DNA from: Methanolobus vulcani
GTDB taxonomy: Archaea; Halobacteriota; Methanosarcinia; Methanosarcinales; Methanosarcinaceae
Length of the DNA stretch: 39,020 nucleotides
Assembly (NCBI RefSeq): GCF_900100715.1
Contig: NZ_FNCA01000013.1
Location: 19,384 to 58,403 of the forward strand
Reading direction: 5' to 3'
This document shows, one piece after another, positions 24,053-39,020 of the stretch. The notes under the pieces were generated by a model. The model made no database searches. It had not been told where the DNA came from and saw only the letters and a program-made list of their open reading frames with translations. How positions within the stretch are numbered: position 1 is the stretch's first letter; each line of letters starts with the position of its first letter. The position numbers and the translations under genes were made by a program.

Positions 24053-27000
24053 TTAAATCAGTGCATCATTAGAAATATCAGGATGCAATTTTCCGGATGA
24101 GGAAGAAGAGAAGGAATCTTTCAAATCATCTACAGGTTCATCATTGACAATTGAAACGCTGCCATCCAGTTTGAATTTGGACACAACAAGTTGCATTCTT
24201 GAAGCAACCTCCGCAAGCTCCTGAGCCGAGTGTGAGAGTTCCTGCATGGAAGCAGTCTGTTCCTGAACTGAAGCAGAGGCCTCTTGAGCACCTGCTGCAG
24301 ACTGCTCGGAAATTGTAGAAACCTCATTTACAGAGGAATTTACCTCCTCAATAGAAGCGGATTGTTCCTCAGTAGCTTCGGCAATCTCCTGAACCATCTT
24401 TACAATAGTGTTTCCAGCTTCAACAACATCACTTATTGCTTTCACAGAATTACCAAGGGACTCTGCACCCTTATGCACCTCTTCAGAACCTCTCTGCATA
24501 GAATTCACAGCATTCTTAGTACCACTCTGCATCTGGACAATAAGTTCTGAGATCTGCTTTGCAGCATTACCTGAATCCTCGGCAAGCTTACGCACCTCAT
24601 CAGCAACAACCGCAAATCCACGACCATGGTCTCCTGCCCTTGCAGCTTCAATAGCAGCATTAAGAGCAAGCAGGTTGGTCTGATCCGCAATGCTTGTAAT
24701 AAGATTCACGATCTCACCTATCCTGTTTGACTTGACATCAAGATCAGTAATCACACTTGAAGAATCACCCACAGCAGACTTGATACTTTCCATCATATGC
24801 ATCAGGTCCTCTGACATGTCACCAAGACTCTGTATAAGAGCATTCGAATCAACCGCATTCTTGGAAGCCATCTCCGAATTAATAGCGACTTCCTGAACCA
24901 TACGACTCATATCGACCATTGCACTGGAAACATCCTGAGCCTTACTAGCTTGGAGCTGCGTACCCATTGAGATCTCATTCACAGTATTGGTGATCTGGTC
25001 AGCACTGGATGAGAGCTGCTCAGTAACAGCAGACATTTCCTGAGAAGTGTAAGCTATAGATTCTGCATTCTCAGTTACAAGAGCAACAATATCATTCAAA
25101 GAATGCCTGCATTTCTCAACGCCCCCGGTAAGCTCCATGAAATCACCAACGCCATGCACCCTTACTTCTCTTGTCAGGTCATTGGAAGCAATAGACTCCA
25201 GAACCTCGCATGAATCTTCAATAATTCCCTGCAGTGTGTCACCAAAACCATCCAGAGTATCACTCAGAACCCTGAAATCACCTTTAGTAGAAATTCTAAT
25301 CCTAGTATCAAGATCTCCCTGCGAATAAGCAGTAATCACACGGGAAGCCTCATTCACAGGATCAACAACGGTATCCAGACAGTTGTTGAAGCCATCCACG
25401 ATCTTCAGATAATCACCCTGGTGCCTTGAAGTATCGGCACGGACATCAAGCTGTCCGTTCACTCCTGCCCGGGCCAGCATATCAGCATCCTCAACAAGAT
25501 TATTGATAGCTTCGATACAGGTATTCAGATTGTTCTTGATGGTATTAAAATCACCACAATAAACATCAGTAATGATCGGAGGTATATCGCCCTTTGAGAT
25601 CCTGTCAAAGTATTCAGCTGTGACATTCAGAGGACAGATCACAGCTTCAAGAGTATTGTTCACACCTTCCACAATTGTCCCGTAATCACCCTGGTGTCTG
25701 GAAACATCGGCACGGACATCAAGCCTGCCTTCAATGGTGGCTGCTGACAGCATATTGACATCACTGATCAGAGCATTGATAGCAGCTATGCACATGTTAA
25801 GATTATTTTTGATCTTATTGAAATCGCCACTATAATCATCAGTGATCTCTTGAGGAATGTCACCATGAGCGATACGATCAACATACTCCGCTGCCACATT
25901 AAGTGGATCAATGACAGCATCAAGAGTATTGTTCACACCCTCAATGATTACACGATAATCACCGTCGTGCTTTGAAGCATCAGCACGGACATCCAGTTGA
26001 CCATCGACAGCAGCGGCTGAAAGCATGTTAGAATCAGAAATGAGTGCATTGATAGCATCAATACAGCCATTGAGGTTACTTTTGATCTCATTGAAATCAC
26101 CGCTATAATCATCAGTAATGTGTGGAGGAATATCACCGTGAGCAATACGGTCAACATACTCAGCAGCGACATTCAAAGGATCTATCACAGCATCAAGGGT
26201 ATCATTAACACCAGTGATGATAGTGCAATAGTCGCCGTAATGATTTGAAGCATCGGCACGGACATCAAGTTTACCGGCAACTGCGGCCTCAGAGAGCATA
26301 TTGGCATCAGAAACAAGGGCATTGATAGCATCAATACAGCCATTGAGGTTACTTTTGATCTCATTGAAATCACCACTGTAATCATCAGTAATGTGTGGAG
26401 GAATATCACCGTGAGCAATACGGTCAACATACTCTGCCGCCACATTAAGTGGGCTGATCACAGAATCAAGAGTGTCGTTCACACCATCAATAATAGCACG
26501 ATAATCACCGTTATGTTTTGAAGCGTCGGCACGAACATCAAGTTTACCATCTACAGCCGCTTCTGAAAGCAGATTAGCATCAGAAACAAGCTCATTTATC
26601 GCGTCAATACAGCCATTAAGATTATCCTTGATCTCATTGAAATCACCGTTGTAATCATCACTGATATGAGGAGGAATATCTCCATGAGCAATACGATCAA
26701 TGTATTCTGCTGCCACATTAAGAGGACTGATCACAGCATCAAGGGTATCATTAACACCATTAATGATCGAACGGTAATCACCATCGTGTCTTGAAGCATT
26801 GGCACGAACATCAAGTTTACCATCGACAGCAGCGGCTGAAAGCAGGTTGGCATCAGAGACAAGTGCGTTGATAGCATCAATACAGCCATTAAGGTTATTC
26901 TTGATCTCGCTGAAATCACCACTATAATCATCAGTGATATGCGAAGGAATGTCACCATGAGAAATACGATCTATATATTCTGCTGCCACATTAAGAGGAT

Positions 27001-28666
27001 TAATTACAGCATCAAGGGTATCATTAACACCATTAATGATCGAACGATAATCACCATTATGCTTTGAAGCGTCGGCACGAACATCAAGTTTTCCTTCAAC
27101 AGCTGCTGCAGAAAGCAGATTAGCATCCTTGATCAGTGCGTTGATAGCATCAATACAACCATTGAGGTTGTTCTTGATCTCATTGAAGTCACCATAATAA
27201 GTTTCAGTTATTCTTGGAGGAACATCACCATGAGCAATACGATCGACATACTCCGCTGCCACATTAAGCGGACCTATAACGGCATCAAGAGTATCATTAA
27301 CACCAGTGATGATAGCACGATAATCACCATTATGTTTTGAAGCGTCGGCACGAACATCAAGCTTGCCTTCGACTGCAGCTGCAGAAAGCAGATTAGCATC
27401 AGAAACAAGGGCAGTTATCGAATCAATACACTGATTCATGTTGTTCTTGATCTCATTAAAATCACCATGATATTCATCAGTAATATGAGGAGGAATATCA
27501 CCTTTGGAAATACGATCAACATATTCAGCGGCAACGTTCAATGGCATAATAACCGCATCAAGAACCTGGTTAAAACCCCGAGGAATAGCCTCGAAATCAA
27601 TACCCACATCAGTGTTTGCTCTTCTGTCAAGTTGACCCATCATTGTGGCATTGGCCATATCCTCAAAGTCAGTAACTATCTTCCCGATCCCGCCTGATAT
27701 CGACCTGCTTAAAAAGAAAGCAGCCAGTGCACCCAGGATGATGAATATAAGAACCGCAACTATCAAACTGTTTTTGATAGCCATGAGCGGACCTTCAAAT
27801 TCTTCAACATAACTGCTTGAAACTATATACCAGTCATTTGGCTCGTAATAAGTGAAACTGGCTATCTTCTCCCGACCTTCCCAATCATATTCAATAGTTC
27901 CTTCTTTGGTGGAAATTATCTCCTTTGCAAAAGCCTGGTCGAAAAGATTTTGCCCTTCCATATTCGGATGCAATATCAGATTCCCTTGAGAGTCCATTAC
28001 GTATACGTAACCAGTCTCACCTACAACGATCTGAGCCATATGTTCTCTTATAGTATTGATGAAAGGATCTTCCAGCACACCAACATACAGAATTCCTATA
28101 ATTTTCCCGGAACTGTCCATAATAGGCTCATATGCTGTGAGATACCAGGCATTGACAACCCATGCTTTTCCATAGAAAGTCTCAGCATTGTTGACAACTG
28201 TATCGTAGACCGGTTGTGAGACTGTAGTACCTACTGCCCTTTCACCAGCATCATTAATAACATTCGTAGAGATCCTTACTGCTTCTCCATTCTCAACCTG
28301 GAACACAGTAGCTGTTCCACCTACCATACTCTTGATGTTATCAACGATCTCATAATTGCCGTTGACAACATAATCTCCTCCTAATACCAATTGCCCGTCT
28401 ACGATTGACGGATCACCTTTTGCATAGAAAAGAGACCTTGCGACTCCCAGGTCACTATTCACTTTATCCTGGGCAAGCGAGAAAGTAGAGTCCACATAAT
28501 CTTTTTCAATAAGCATTTGGCCTTCTAAACTGTCTTCCAGTTGAGCCAGCGTTCCTGCTGCTGTTTGCTCATAAGCATAAAAACCAACTATCGTTACCGG
28601 CAATATTGTTAAAAGCAACGCTACTGCCATTATTTTCTGACTGATACGTATTTTATGTAAATCCAT
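24053..28666 (-). CDS. Methyl-accepting chemotaxis protein with a poly-HAMP array
   Basis: 1537 residues. TM1 (about 11-31) and TM2 (about 299-320) flank an extracellular Cache_3-Cache_2-type sensor (about 36-295; VVGETGYVYVMDSQGNLILH marks its distal lobe). A first HAMP (about 321-373) is followed by eight 91-residue units (374-1101), each of two HAMP-like halves, then a divergent ninth unit (about 1102-1195), and the methyl-accepting signalling hairpin with tip ITSIADQTNLLALNAAIEAA near 1330. No C-terminal CheR-tether pentapeptide is seen (ends SNDALI). It should signal to CheA through CheW. GGGTGG precedes the ATG. No che gene is adjacent. Confidence 0.95.
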   Translation of the reverse strand: MDLHKIRISQKIMAVALLLTILPVTIVGFYAYEQTAAGTLAQLEDSLEGQMLIEKDYVDSTFSLAQDKVNSDLGVARSLFYAKGDPSIVDGQLVLGGDYVVNGNYEIVDNIKSMVGGTATVFQVENGEAVRISTNVINDAGERAVGTTVSQPVYDTVVNNAETFYGKAWVVNAWYLTAYEPIMDSSGKIIGILYVGVLEDPFINTIREHMAQIVVGETGYVYVMDSQGNLILHPNMEGQNLFDQAFAKEIISTKEGTIEYDWEGREKIASFTYYEPNDWYIVSSSYVEEFEGPLMAIKNSLIVAVLIFIILGALAAFFLSRSISGGIGKIVTDFEDMANATMMGQLDRRANTDVGIDFEAIPRGFNQVLDAVIMPLNVAAEYVDRISKGDIPPHITDEYHGDFNEIKNNMNQCIDSITALVSDANLLSAAAVEGKLDVRADASKHNGDYRAIITGVNDTLDAVIGPLNVAAEYVDRIAHGDVPPRITETYYGDFNEIKNNLNGCIDAINALIKDANLLSAAAVEGKLDVRADASKHNGDYRSIINGVNDTLDAVINPLNVAAEYIDRISHGDIPSHITDDYSGDFSEIKNNLNGCIDAINALVSDANLLSAAAVDGKLDVRANASRHDGDYRSIINGVNDTLDAVISPLNVAAEYIDRIAHGDIPPHISDDYNGDFNEIKDNLNGCIDAINELVSDANLLSEAAVDGKLDVRADASKHNGDYRAIIDGVNDTLDSVISPLNVAAEYVDRIAHGDIPPHITDDYSGDFNEIKSNLNGCIDAINALVSDANMLSEAAVAGKLDVRADASNHYGDYCTIITGVNDTLDAVIDPLNVAAEYVDRIAHGDIPPHITDDYSGDFNEIKSNLNGCIDAINALISDSNMLSAAAVDGQLDVRADASKHDGDYRVIIEGVNNTLDAVIDPLNVAAEYVDRIAHGDIPQEITDDYSGDFNKIKNNLNMCIAAINALISDVNMLSAATIEGRLDVRADVSRHQGDYGTIVEGVNNTLEAVICPLNVTAEYFDRISKGDIPPIITDVYCGDFNTIKNNLNTCIEAINNLVEDADMLARAGVNGQLDVRADTSRHQGDYLKIVDGFNNCLDTVVDPVNEASRVITAYSQGDLDTRIRISTKGDFRVLSDTLDGFGDTLQGIIEDSCEVLESIASNDLTREVRVHGVGDFMELTGGVEKCRHSLNDIVALVTENAESIAYTSQEMSAVTEQLSSSADQITNTVNEISMGTQLQASKAQDVSSAMVDMSRMVQEVAINSEMASKNAVDSNALIQSLGDMSEDLMHMMESIKSAVGDSSSVITDLDVKSNRIGEIVNLITSIADQTNLLALNAAIEAARAGDHGRGFAVVADEVRKLAEDSGNAAKQISELIVQMQSGTKNAVNSMQRGSEEVHKGAESLGNSVKAISDVVEAGNTIVKMVQEIAEATEEQSASIEEVNSSVNEVSTISEQSAAGAQEASASVQEQTASMQELSHSAQELAEVASRMQLVVSKFKLDGSVSIVNDEPVDDLKDSFSSSSSGKLHPDISNDALI
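25364..27547 (-). repeat. Eight tandem 273-bp units encoding double HAMP domains
   Basis: Unit starts on the minus strand are 27547, 27274, 27001, 26728, 26455, 26182, 25909 and 25636. Each encodes 91 residues patterned x-PLNVAAEYVDRIAHGDIPPH ... GDFNEIKNNLNGCIDAINAL and SDANLLSAAAVDGKLDVRAD ... GDYRAIITGVNDTLDAVI. Units 2-6 are nearly identical and unit 8 is the most divergent, as expected for recent internal expansion by unequal recombination. There is no frameshift within the array. Confidence 0.92.
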
Positions 28667-35243: not shown

Positions 35244-35747
35244 ATGAGCAAAGCAAACCAATTCCTTAAGGGAGAGGATGCAGTATCTCCGGTCATCGGC
35301 GTAATCCTGATGGTCGCAATCACTGTCATCCTTGCTGCAGTTATCGCAGCGTTTGTATTCGGCATGGGACCACCAGAACAGGCACCACAGGCAAGTTTAA
35401 GAGCAAGTGCGGCAACTCTTAGCGGTGAAAATGTAATAAAACTTGAACACCAGGGCGGAGACGCAGTTACATTAACATCTGCTAAAACTAAGGTTACAGT
35501 ATCAGGAAATAGTACTACAGAGGGTACAATTACTCTTAACACATCAATGAGTACTGCTGACCAACAGTTTGAAGCAGGCGAAACATTATATGTGTTCTAT
35601 GACGGTGCTGACTCGCAACTTGACACAACTGCAGTAGCAACAGCGGATGCAGCAGACCCAATTGCAGCATCTGGTGAAAGGCTGAACCTTAAATTAATTG
35701 ATGTTAACAGCCAGCAGATGATTGCAGATATGGACATTAACTTCTAA
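35244..35747 (+). CDS. Archaeal type IV pilin
   Basis: 167 residues. A short charged leader (MSKANQFLKGEDA) is followed by the archaeal pilin N-terminal motif VSPVIGVILMVAITVILAAV and its hydrophobic helix to about residue 39; cleavage by a prepilin peptidase probably occurs just before VSPVIG. The C-terminal domain (about 48-167) is Thr/Ser/Ala-rich and beta-like, as in surface-exposed pilins. GAGAGGAACAAATT precedes the ATG. It forms adhesion or surface pili; no pilus ATPase or membrane platform gene is in the window. Confidence 0.92.
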   Translation: MSKANQFLKGEDAVSPVIGVILMVAITVILAAVIAAFVFGMGPPEQAPQASLRASAATLSGENVIKLEHQGGDAVTLTSAKTKVTVSGNSTTEGTITLNTSMSTADQQFEAGETLYVFYDGADSQLDTTAVATADAADPIAASGERLNLKLIDVNSQQMIADMDINF

Positions 35748-35868: not shown

Positions 35869-36408
35869 ATGTTGGACTATGAATTATCATTAAAGAATTC
35901 CTGGAATGTTGTAAAAGAAAATATTGTAACTTTTATTGTTGGACTTTTGATAACTGTAATTGGATCGGTTTTGATCGTCACTATAGCACCTCTATTTTAT
36001 GGATTCACCTCAATGGCCGTAAAGGGTGCAAGAGGAGAAGCAATAGAAATTGGCGATGTATTTGAAGGATTCAAAAAAGACAATATAATCCGAAGCTGGA
36101 CATTTATGATCATATATCTGATCATTGCAGGAATATTGGGAGAGATTGCATCAATACTCAGCACCATAATAGGCATTTTGTTCATGTTTTCAATGCCATT
36201 GCTCGTGATAAAAGGGTCCAGTGGAATTGAAGCAATTGCAGAAAGTATAGAAATTGTGAAAACTGCCCCGGTAGAGAGTATCATTGTTTATGTTATAACA
36301 GTGGTTCTCAACGTGATCGGCATAATCCTCCTTGGAATAGGAGTACTTATAACTGCACCTATTAGCACAGTATTTCTGGCCTATGCAACCTTTGAACTGG
36401 CAGAGTAA
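35869..36408 (+). CDS. DUF4013-like membrane protein
   Basis: 179 residues with about five membrane helices: about 20-45, a GF-rich loop with VKGARGEAIEIGDVFEGFKK, then about 75-93, 100-115, 133-155 and 160-175. The layout matches the DUF4013 and glycerophosphodiesterase-membrane-region group; function unknown. No strong ribosome site precedes the ATG. A hairpin with a T tract follows it. Confidence 0.8.
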   Translation: MLDYELSLKNSWNVVKENIVTFIVGLLITVIGSVLIVTIAPLFYGFTSMAVKGARGEAIEIGDVFEGFKKDNIIRSWTFMIIYLIIAGILGEIASILSTIIGILFMFSMPLLVIKGSSGIEAIAESIEIVKTAPVESIIVYVITVVLNVIGIILLGIGVLITAPISTVFLAYATFELAE

Positions 36409-36657: not shown

Positions 36658-37008
36658 ATGAGCGAAACTAACTTAGGAGTAAGCGAAAATATTGCCGGAG
36701 TATTGGCATATCTTTTTGGCTTGGTCTCTGGAATACTTATATTGGTTATTGAAAAAGAAAATACATTTGCACGCTTCCATGCAGCCCAGTCTTCAGTTTT
36801 ATGTATTGCGACTATTGTTCTATCCATATTTATTATGATAGTTGGATGGATACCAATTATCGGTTGGCTGATCGCATTATTGTCAATATTTGTGTATTTA
36901 GCAATATTCGTACTATGGCTTTTCCTTATGTTCAAAGCCTTTTCAGGTGAAATGTACAGATTACCAGTATTAGCAGACTACGCTGATCAGCTGGAAGGAA
37001 TGTTCTAA
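36658..37008 (+). CDS. DUF4870 (Tic20-like) small membrane protein
   Basis: 116 residues: NIAGVLAYLFGLVSGILILV at the start, then EKENTFARFHAAQSSVLCIA, the DUF4870 signature, and two further helices, ending with a GEMYRLPVLADYAD tail. Four membrane helices in all. CGGAGAATTACC precedes the ATG. The family is widespread; no role is established. Confidence 0.88.
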   Translation: MSETNLGVSENIAGVLAYLFGLVSGILILVIEKENTFARFHAAQSSVLCIATIVLSIFIMIVGWIPIIGWLIALLSIFVYLAIFVLWLFLMFKAFSGEMYRLPVLADYADQLEGMF

Positions 37009-37084: not shown

Positions 37085-39020
37085 TTATATCCCATATATC
37101 TCTGAGCCTTTCTTAACTTTCTCGATGTCCCTTTCTATTACAGAAAGTCTGTTCTTGTCAACCTTCATACCTGCAAGGCTTTCGATGAACCAGATGGATT
37201 TTACATGGTCATCAGGAGTGAGTTTCCAGTCTGGTTTTTCCATATAGAAATCAATACCTTCGGCATAATGAAGAAGCTCCATCCTGACTTTTTCAGTGAT
37301 CCAGCCAAGTTCTTCATAATAAGACAATATATCAGGAAGGTTGTTGCGACCGACCAGCTCCATCAGAAACTCAAGCCATTCCATACAGAGTTTCATATTG
37401 CTGGAATTTTTCACGATGTTTGAAAGATGGACATTCTGCCCAAATCCCTTATAGCTTCTTGCACCAAGCTTTTTCAATTCGCTTTCCATATATTCTGTGA
37501 GTGAATCGAGCTTTTCCAGCACAGCAGTGTTCTTCTCCTCTGTTTCCTGCCTGAACTCCTGGAACTCAGAAGATACCTTTCCAAGATTATCAACCATGGA
37601 TGACATTGAGCGTGAGAATTCTTTTGATGTTGACCTTGATTCTTCCTGCATCTTTTCAATAAGCTCAACTCTTGGTCCAAATGAATCGATCTTAGATGAT
37701 AGTTCAGCCAGGACCGCAAATTTTGATTCATTTTCCTGTAGTGATTCATGCAACTGAGCAAGAAGAGCTGTATAAGAACCAACAAGTTCAGATATGCTTT
37801 CATCTATCTGCGAAAGATCAGTCTTCATTGAAACATTATCAGACTGCAACATTGAAATAGAAGAATCAAACTCAGATATCTTGTTTTCTACCTGTGCGAC
37901 CTTACCGTCAACAGCATCAAAACGAGAATTACTCTGGGAAAGGATATTTTCACTTGAACTGACAGCAGAAGCTACAGACCCAGTGATCTCTGATATCTTG
38001 TTTGAAAAACCTTCAATTTCAGCATGAATAGAAGAGATGTGAAGGTTCATATCACTCAGACTCTCTTTCAGTCCTCCAAGGTCACCTTCCACATCTTCAA
38101 ACTTTTTATTGGTAGTTGTCCTTATGTCGTTTAACTCTTTAGTGAACACCTTTCTGGAGAGTTCCATACCTGATGTGGAAGAAGTCTTTTCCTGAATACT
38201 AACCTCGTCAGGAACAGCTGAGACCTCAAGTGCATTTTCACCTTCAGCTTCAAGTTCTGTTTGTTTCAGAAATGAGTCTTGACCATAATCCTGAATAAAT
38301 AGCTCATTCGACCCTGGCATATTATCAGAAGAATTAGCTTTTGTAACTGCATCTGTTATCATATCATTAACTGCAAGGCTAGAATTTTCTGCATCTATAG
38401 AAGAAATAGATGCATCTGCAGTTAACTCGCCATTTCCAGACAATGCATCAATTGAAGCATTATTACCAAAATCATCCTTATCAAGTAGATATTCCTCTCT
38501 CATTTCCAGAATTGGATTTTCAATAGGAGTTACCTGACGTATAGCACTAACTGTCCCATCATCTTCATTTTCCATGAAAGGATTCACATGCACATTGGTA
38601 TTTTCCGATAATTCAAAGGGATTAGCATCAAATGGTGAAGCATTCGAAGTAATTGCCGGTTTTGATTCTGCATTGTGTCTTACAGATTCGGCAACATCCA
38701 CTTCCTCCCGCATGTCTTCCATCCTCTCAATAAGACTTTTTCCTTTTGTTAGATTTTTAAGGAAACCTTTTGTGATGCCAGAAATACCTTCCAGATTTTT
38801 CTTAAATGAACCCATATCAATTGGTAATTTAACAGGAAGCTTTTGTGAGTGTCTATTATTTTCAAATGAACCTGTATCAGAAGCAACTTGAACACCAAAT
38901 GGATTTTGAGACTGGAAAGCCTCATGAGTAGATTCAAAGGGATTGGGTTCTACAGGACCACCGGCTGAAGCAAAAGGATTGCCAGAAGGAATTGTATCAG
39001 GTGTAGGCTCAAAGGGATTG
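37085..39020 (-). CDS. ArlC/D/E-type coiled-coil protein with NPF repeats, 5' end outside the window
   Basis: The frame stays open to the right edge, so the true start lies beyond 39020; the ATG at 38815 is internal. N-terminal visible part: a disordered acidic region with recurring NPF tripeptides (39018, 38980, 38943, 38905, plus two more near 38600). Then a long coiled coil (about 38150-37480) with KELNDIRTTTNKKFEDVEGD and heptad-like helices. The last about 110 residues match the archaellum ArlD/ArlE (FlaD/E) domain: CMEWLEFLMELVGRNNLPDI and YYEELGWITEKVR. ArlC/D/E couple CheF/CheY to the motor ATPase. Other arl genes, if present, are to the right. Confidence 0.75.
   Translation of the reverse strand, partial: NPFEPTPDTIPSGNPFASAGGPVEPNPFESTHEAFQSQNPFGVQVASDTGSFENNRHSQKLPVKLPIDMGSFKKNLEGISGITKGFLKNLTKGKSLIERMEDMREEVDVAESVRHNAESKPAITSNASPFDANPFELSENTNVHVNPFMENEDDGTVSAIRQVTPIENPILEMREEYLLDKDDFGNNASIDALSGNGELTADASISSIDAENSSLAVNDMITDAVTKANSSDNMPGSNELFIQDYGQDSFLKQTELEAEGENALEVSAVPDEVSIQEKTSSTSGMELSRKVFTKELNDIRTTTNKKFEDVEGDLGGLKESLSDMNLHISSIHAEIEGFSNKISEITGSVASAVSSSENILSQSNSRFDAVDGKVAQVENKISEFDSSISMLQSDNVSMKTDLSQIDESISELVGSYTALLAQLHESLQENESKFAVLAELSSKIDSFGPRVELIEKMQEESRSTSKEFSRSMSSMVDNLGKVSSEFQEFRQETEEKNTAVLEKLDSLTEYMESELKKLGARSYKGFGQNVHLSNIVKNSSNMKLCMEWLEFLMELVGRNNLPDILSYYEELGWITEKVRMELLHYAEGIDFYMEKPDWKLTPDDHVKSIWFIESLAGMKVDKNRLSVIERDIEKVKKGSEIYGI

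Follow-up and report, generated by a model that had tools for sequence, protein, structure and literature searches.

A long second ArlC/D/E-type gene of Methanolobus vulcani and the repeated NPF motifs of its N-terminal arm

The 39,020-nucleotide stretch of Methanolobus vulcani DNA analysed here (the window) breaks off inside a gene whose product joins an archaellum-type C-terminal domain to a long N-terminal region in which the tripeptide NPF recurs, raising the question of what such a protein does and whether the repeated motif has a partner. NPF is the ligand of EH domains in eukaryotes. The first-pass annotation had proposed that the motif might recruit partners to the motor or to the polar organiser, a role that the sequence comparisons described below leave plausible. 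We give an even chance to the gene supplying the archaellum switch complex with a second subunit of ArlC/D/E type, whose arm would dock partners through [NDS]PF motifs.

The gene and the anatomy of its product

The gene, here called LONG (window 37085-39019(-)), is open for 644 residues in window:37088-39019(-) and leaves the window at a contig end (G000:C11:58403; Table 1). Within the same genome, a DNA search showed that contig C13 ends in near-identical repeats, and the 5' end sought in adjoining sequence was located there: L006:12196-12981 begins with ATG (MSELPWENKK...) and encodes 262 residues that run off into the NPF repeat, with five NPF spaced by 13/12/13/12. The two contig ends have 20 bases in common, inside the repeat. 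If they simply abut, LONG counts 900 residues and 10 NPF, and additional repeat units between them may be missing from the assembly.

Table 1. Features of LONG and of the genes adjoining it, in window coordinates; residues are those of the 644-residue part
Feature	Position	Strand	Basis or remark
LONG, 3' part, 644 aa + stop	37085-39019	(-)	5' part on another contig, L006:12196-12981
Arch_fla_DE domain, residues 528-617	37169-37438	(-)	Pfam PF04659, E 8e-28
Long coiled coil, residues 287-518, two model helices	37466-38161	(-)	AlphaFold2 helices 287-354, 363-518
FlaC-like coiled-coil part, residues 373-416	37772-37903	(-)	FlaC_arch positions 1-44 of 55
Second low-confidence stretch, residues 118-286, with two NPF and VTPIE motif (38513-38542)	38162-38668	(-)	pLDDT mostly <50
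Predicted head helices, residues 69-117, with FLKNLTKGKSLIERMEDM (38711-38764)	38669-38815	(-)	AlphaFold2 model
End of N-terminal arm, four in-register NPF	38816-39019	(-)	AlphaFold2 model and motif positions
Array NPF	38897-38905 (residue 39), 38936-38944, 38972-38980, 39011-39019	(-)	Motif positions
Later NPF pair	38615-38623 (residue 133), 38576-38584	(-)	Motif positions
DUF4870 membrane protein, convergent	36658-37008	(+)	Present in 10/20 Methanolobus loci
GPDPase_memb-like membrane protein	35869-36408	(+)	Present in 14/20 Methanolobus loci
Archaeal type IV pilin (Pilin_N)	35244-35747	(+)	Pfam and locus comparison

The protein begins with an arm bearing short motifs, followed by the NPF array and a predicted pair of head helices that includes KGKSLIERME; after another stretch of predicted disorder come the coiled coil and the DE domain. 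The C-terminus matches Pfam Arch_fla_DE with 96.6 bits (cut-off 21), in agreement with its earlier assignment as ArlD/E. In the AlphaFold2 model of the 644-residue part (mean pLDDT 60.7), values stay below 50 at residues 1-69 and at most of 115-288, a coiled coil of ~230 residues follows, and five further helices lie within 540-636. The NPF repeats are thus placed, as had been claimed, in a stretch ahead of the coiled coil whose low confidence indicates that the arm is probably disordered. FlaC_arch (PF05377) aligned to LONG reaches 25.3 bits, below its cut-off of 27.8; searched against the genome it scores 30.2 bits, above the cut-off, yet still covers just positions 1-44 of 55, the other LONG matches listed being below cut-off. 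LONG therefore lacks the FlaC_arch tail that bears the NPF of ArlC. Searches for solved relatives, by sequence and by fold, returned only coiled-coil or insignificant matches, an NCBIfam scan just coiled-coil families far below cut-off, and a search of a plasmid collection no match.

Among 27 Methanolobus genomes surveyed, 19 full-length orthologues of 873-1011 residues were retained, leaving out the truncated L075 and L019 as well as genomes from which no full-length LONG was retrieved. All 19 carry the start motif PWE and PDILANAF, and 10 of them PPPLFEP by simple pattern. A long N-terminal arm with these recurring motifs is found in most genera of the family. Under a loose pattern, KxLIxRME occurs in 19/19 Methanolobus copies and in 35 of 41 LONG copies overall, a strict head-helix pattern being matched by 13/41; homology of this head helix to the ArlCDE N-terminus was judged by eye only.

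Paralogy with ArlCDE and genomic surroundings

Two genes of the genome contain a DE domain, LONG and an ArlCDE fusion within the arl cluster (L007:6254-7609) that is followed by genes which, from their order, we take to be arlF, G, H, I and J. The arl cluster having its own ArlCDE, the window gene is ruled out as the arl-cluster gene. The ArlI ATPase gene (L007:9345-12863) encodes 1172 residues with, by eye, an apparent intein, and a CheF match is also present in the genome. LONG shares with the ArlCDE fusion (FlaC_arch plus Arch_fla_DE) the DE domain, the coiled coil and a disordered head with [NSD]PF, whereas the fusion measures 452 residues, shows a complete FlaC_arch match including the NPF and sits in the arl cluster. 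The LONG-type patterns PWE, PDILANAF, PPPLFEP, KxLIxRME and VxPIE were absent from the 20 ArlCDE fusions scanned (0/20), and PDL occurred in 4/20.

In a tree of 94 DE domains (99 columns), LONG copies form one clade (support 100/99), with the arl-type copies beside it (98/78) and both together at 98/89. Upon addition of sister families (98 columns), second copies of family f34 enter the LONG clade (99/97) and the arl-type copies no longer make up one clade. Both trees have fewer than 100 columns and gave long-branch warnings, repeated loci and domain scores below 50 bits having been dropped; in the first, L010, L122 and L123, entered as arl-type, fell in the LONG clade, and L085, whose length had led to its entry as a haloarchaeal ArlD, belongs to family f6 and is a truncated frame. 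As judged from these alignments, LONG and the arl-cluster ArlCDE are distinct paralogues, and since the f34 second copies join the LONG clade, the duplication is probably older than the family, with the long arm a probable later acquisition. The f34 copies (L244, L245, L246, L247) resemble LONG in this placement and, for three of them and by eye, in starting with a KxLIxRME-like head, but they measure 367-426 residues and have no long arm; the three examined contain 0 NPF, and a scan of two at E 0.01 gave no FlaC_arch match.

Families f10 and f15 are presumably haloarchaea. Haloarchaeal ArlD and ArlCE resemble LONG and ArlCDE in that a second DE-domain gene stands beside a fused ArlC/E, but the stand-alone ArlD frames comprise 157-193 residues without a long arm, and the haloarchaeal pair groups apart (100/99), so that the two duplications look independent in a tree of only 98 columns. 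Orthology of LONG with haloarchaeal ArlD is unsupported by either tree (99 and 98 columns). In Haloferax, ArlCE and ArlD interact, according to the passages available of PMC8978795.

Genera are labelled g1 (Methanolobus), g7 (Methanococcoides), g12 (Methanosalsum) and g11 (mostly Methanomethylovorans), and g10 is, we assume, probably Methanohalophilus. Sixty genomes of the family gave a DE match below E 1e-20, and a count by hand found at least two matches in 54 of them (G048 and G070 being counted with a fragment). The second copy itself is not new, since Methanococcoides burtonii was reported in 2007 to have a further flaD that lies outside its fla cluster (Desmond 2007, PMC1914349, in the portion available). 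This extra flaD is probably the same paralogue, as 10 genomes of the Methanococcoides group (g7) have LONG either a long way from the arl-type copy or on a separate contig. The same portion of that paper covers copy number and tree, and mentions neither a disordered arm nor a PF repeat (PMC1914349). In two g14 genomes, a divergent DE domain was observed at the N-terminus of frames of 829 (L126:1-2487) and 572 residues (L127:4409-6124), the reverse of the usual order.

The surroundings of LONG differ among genera. In g2, g7, g9, g10, g12 and g14, the gene next after it encodes a pilin-like protein with DUF7287, which follows closely in 16 genomes and is convergent with LONG in G035 and in the G036 remnant. 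Within the one cluster analysed with Pfam (L046), LONG and DUF7287 are followed by DUF7288, 7261, 7266, 7289 and two DUF7289-7308 proteins, an arrangement that other loci seem by eye to share. Methanolobus and g11 have no DUF7287 cluster beside LONG; there, ThiI lies on one side and, where the contig reaches, GPDPase_memb-like, DUF4870 or pilin genes on the other. Both neighbourhoods are combined in g9, with ThrRS and acylphosphatase on one side of LONG and the pilin-like cluster, GPDPase_memb and a pilin on the other, which suggests that the pilin-like cluster was lost from LONG's place in Methanolobus. Loci L145 and L146 show tandem pilin-like clusters on contig C7 of the same M. vulcani genome, with the gene of a 1964-residue protein between them and nuclease-like genes after (names by eye). 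Elsewhere in the window, positions 9-488 contain seven repeat copies with ATTCAAAATCAAGATCCACTAAAACAAGGATTGAAAC at a spacing of 72-76 bases, resembling the end of a CRISPR array, and positions 24053-28666 encode 1537 residues resembling a chemoreceptor, in which a 273-bp unit, possibly HAMP-like, is repeated in tandem about seven times (domain names by eye); related genes occur near LONG in some Methanolobus.

These neighbours introduce the main rival to a place in the switch ring, namely that LONG is a cytosolic scaffold of a type IV pilus-like machine that has borrowed an ArlD/E domain and is no part of the archaellum, a proposal that we regard as unlikely though deserving attention. It is favoured by the DUF7287 gene next to LONG in six genera and by the pilin gene near LONG in Methanolobus; together with the position of Methanolobus LONG outside the arl cluster, LONG's place ahead of pilin-like genes in those six other genera counts against an archaellum subunit. 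So do four genomes with archaellin and an arl-type copy as their only DE copy (G003, G052, G053, G110; three placed in the tree), even though drafts broken at repeats may explain some of these single-copy genomes. The scaffold proposal, on the contrary, fits poorly with the LONG genes of Methanolobus and g11, which have no adjoining DUF7287 cluster, and with one Methanosalsum LONG (G073) located ~2.3 kb from an ArlCDE copy in a locus with archaellin matches.

Co-occurrence with archaellin, searched in 16 chosen genomes, bears on the same choice. All three g10 genomes with archaellin (G032, G033, G035) have LONG, whereas of the five without it, three have no DE domain (G031, G034, G038), one retains a broken remnant (G036) and one a LONG that is intact (G037); in G022 (g7), both archaellin and DE domains are absent. 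The remnant in G036 (L249:9328-10025) is flanked by A-ATPase genes on one side and by a pilin-like cluster of intact appearance on the other. In two genomes, G034 and G036, such a cluster thus persists with no intact LONG, and G034 has neither LONG nor archaellin, a pattern difficult to reconcile with a pilus scaffold. G037, retaining LONG and a variant pilin-like cluster with no archaellin match, speaks for such a scaffold and against an archaellum subunit, but its DE domain is nearly identical to that of G035 (branch 0.01), so its loss of the archaellum may be recent. In general, the pattern favours the archaellum over the pilus, with G037 as counter-example.

The repeated PF motif

Six NPF precede the coiled coil in the window part of LONG, at residues 1, 14, 26, 39, 133 and 146 (spacing 13, 12, 13, 94 and 13), just as first counted, and across 10,000 shufflings of residues 1-288 the motif averaged 0.08 occurrences and never exceeded 2. 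Among orthologues, conservation of the motif holds for the close ones and fails beyond them: 3-16 NPF are present in 19/19 full-length Methanolobus genes and 0-2 in 20 full-length or near-full loci of other genera, so in this comparison arrays are seen only in Methanolobus, and conservation over the whole LONG clade is rejected. In the Methanolobus arm alone there are 2-16 NPF (shuffle p <=0.0275 in 19/19 and <0.005 in 16, the arm being taken as the first half of the protein wherever the head pattern was missing). Beyond Methanolobus, enrichment of xPF was seen in g11 and to a lesser degree in g2 and g14, but not in g7, g9, g10 and g12 except for single low p values. Spacing is not conserved either. 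Most Methanolobus genes have NPF in steps of 11-13 residues, but neither spacing (range 9-81) nor number is constant across the genus, and a fixed ruler is rejected, with steps of 11/22 in some species, 12/13/25 in others and irregular ones in a few.

The array is underlain by a tandem DNA repeat with a 75-bp unit and 88% matches, which makes enrichment by itself weak proof and gives weight to a codon comparison between repeat units. This was carried out on 7 of the 19 Methanolobus genes, picked for clean repeat register. Where P precedes F, 25 changes are synonymous and 16 non-synonymous, against 15/54 for other P (p = 7e-5), F compared with other residues gives p = 0.03, and the N of NPF, with 6 synonymous and 24 non-synonymous changes, shows no constraint. 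A looser test on genes with at least four NPF pointed in the same direction. Constraint thus appears to act on P and, more weakly, on F, and not on N. The residue before PF in Methanolobus arms (n = 260) is N in 106 cases, D in 57 and S in 28; the core of the array is PF, usually with N, D or S ahead. By eye, differing spacers flank this same core in different Methanolobus species. When 57 array residues were used to search the genome for a second array, only the two parts of LONG and a weak match with an internal stop were retrieved. The array is not needed for core function, since it is absent outside Methanolobus and LONG copies of g10 have only 448-480 residues.

Such a repeat could also be a young tandem expansion in a proline-rich linker, the arm being a mere spacer and its motif partnerless. 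The tandem unit with its high identity, the variable copy number (3-16) and spacing, the unconstrained N and the genera that manage without an array all fit this explanation. It accounts less well for the better preservation of P before F than of other P, the corresponding signal for F being only p = 0.03, for the same core between differing spacers, and for the recurrence of [NSD]PF in the disordered head of 21/22 ordinary arl-type ArlCDE fusions of the family. We consider it, like the pilus scaffold, rather improbable, and continue to prefer a docking arm.

The view that ArlC/D/E proteins are not known for NPF needs correction, as those 21/22 ArlCDE heads with [NSD]PF are accompanied by an NPF closing the ArlC (FlaC) coiled coil in 30/30 best-scoring FlaC loci. 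Its context there is [LIV]YE[IMV]V[ST]xx[VI]NPF[VIA] (30/30 loci, L182-L211), and its three residues are among the invariant columns (163-165) when 31 ArlCDE and ArlCE proteins, taken from the family of LONG and presumed haloarchaea, are aligned. In the model of ArlCDE, a helix at 103-162 leads directly into NPF 163-165, so the motif may merely end the helix. No NPF was found in the 290 residues ahead of the DE domain in LONG copies (0/41). Literature searches found no paper on NPF in ArlC/FlaC and, for the NPF motif in archaea, nothing related by title. Preservation in ArlC, loss at that place in LONG and gain of arrays in Methanolobus might suggest that the array imitates the ArlC motif, LONG competing for or gathering its ligand, but this is very improbable given the helix-end position of the ArlC motif, the different contexts (by eye, ArlC [VI]NPF[VIA] versus often [SE]NPF[EDG] in LONG), and its loss also in genera without arrays.

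A possible place in the archaellum motor

According to the parts available of two papers (PMC8978795, PMC9126983), ArlCDE resides in a cytosolic ring, binds ArlH and CheF and perhaps contacts the polar cap; the polar foci of FlaD in Haloferax do not depend on chemosensory arrays, and cells from which FlaD has been deleted are generally without archaella (PMC6509185, in the passages available). In line with these reports, as far as they are available, we interpret LONG as an additional subunit of the ring that carries an arm for docking. The DE domain and coiled coil of LONG would lie in or on the cytosolic ring beside ArlCDE, as haloarchaeal ArlD beside ArlCE, and the arm would act as a multivalent, low-affinity tether whose PF motifs dock a partner at the polar cap, on the chemosensory side or at the motor. 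The same partner may also recognise [NSD]PF in the head of ArlCDE. Homology and co-loss point to the place in the ring, and the constraint on the motif to the docking.

A more specific version, which we consider doubtful, would make LONG a strap from the switch ring to the polar cap, an arm with at least ten [NDS]PF stickers in some Methanolobus binding a polar sheet that also reads the PF of ArlCDE heads and possibly the NPF of ArlC, so that motors would be gathered at the pole by multivalent, condensate-like docking. Literature searches found no paper on disorder in ArlD/ArlCE, nor on intrinsic disorder of the archaellum together with the polar cap.

The available part of a review describes the connection between motor and polar cap as not resolved (PMC8978795). 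As a conserved, arm-bearing paralogue of a switch-ring protein, LONG would bear on the polar anchoring of the archaellum motor; its repeated motif offers a defined peptide with which the partner may be fished out, and the NPF of ArlC a second concrete handle on the family.
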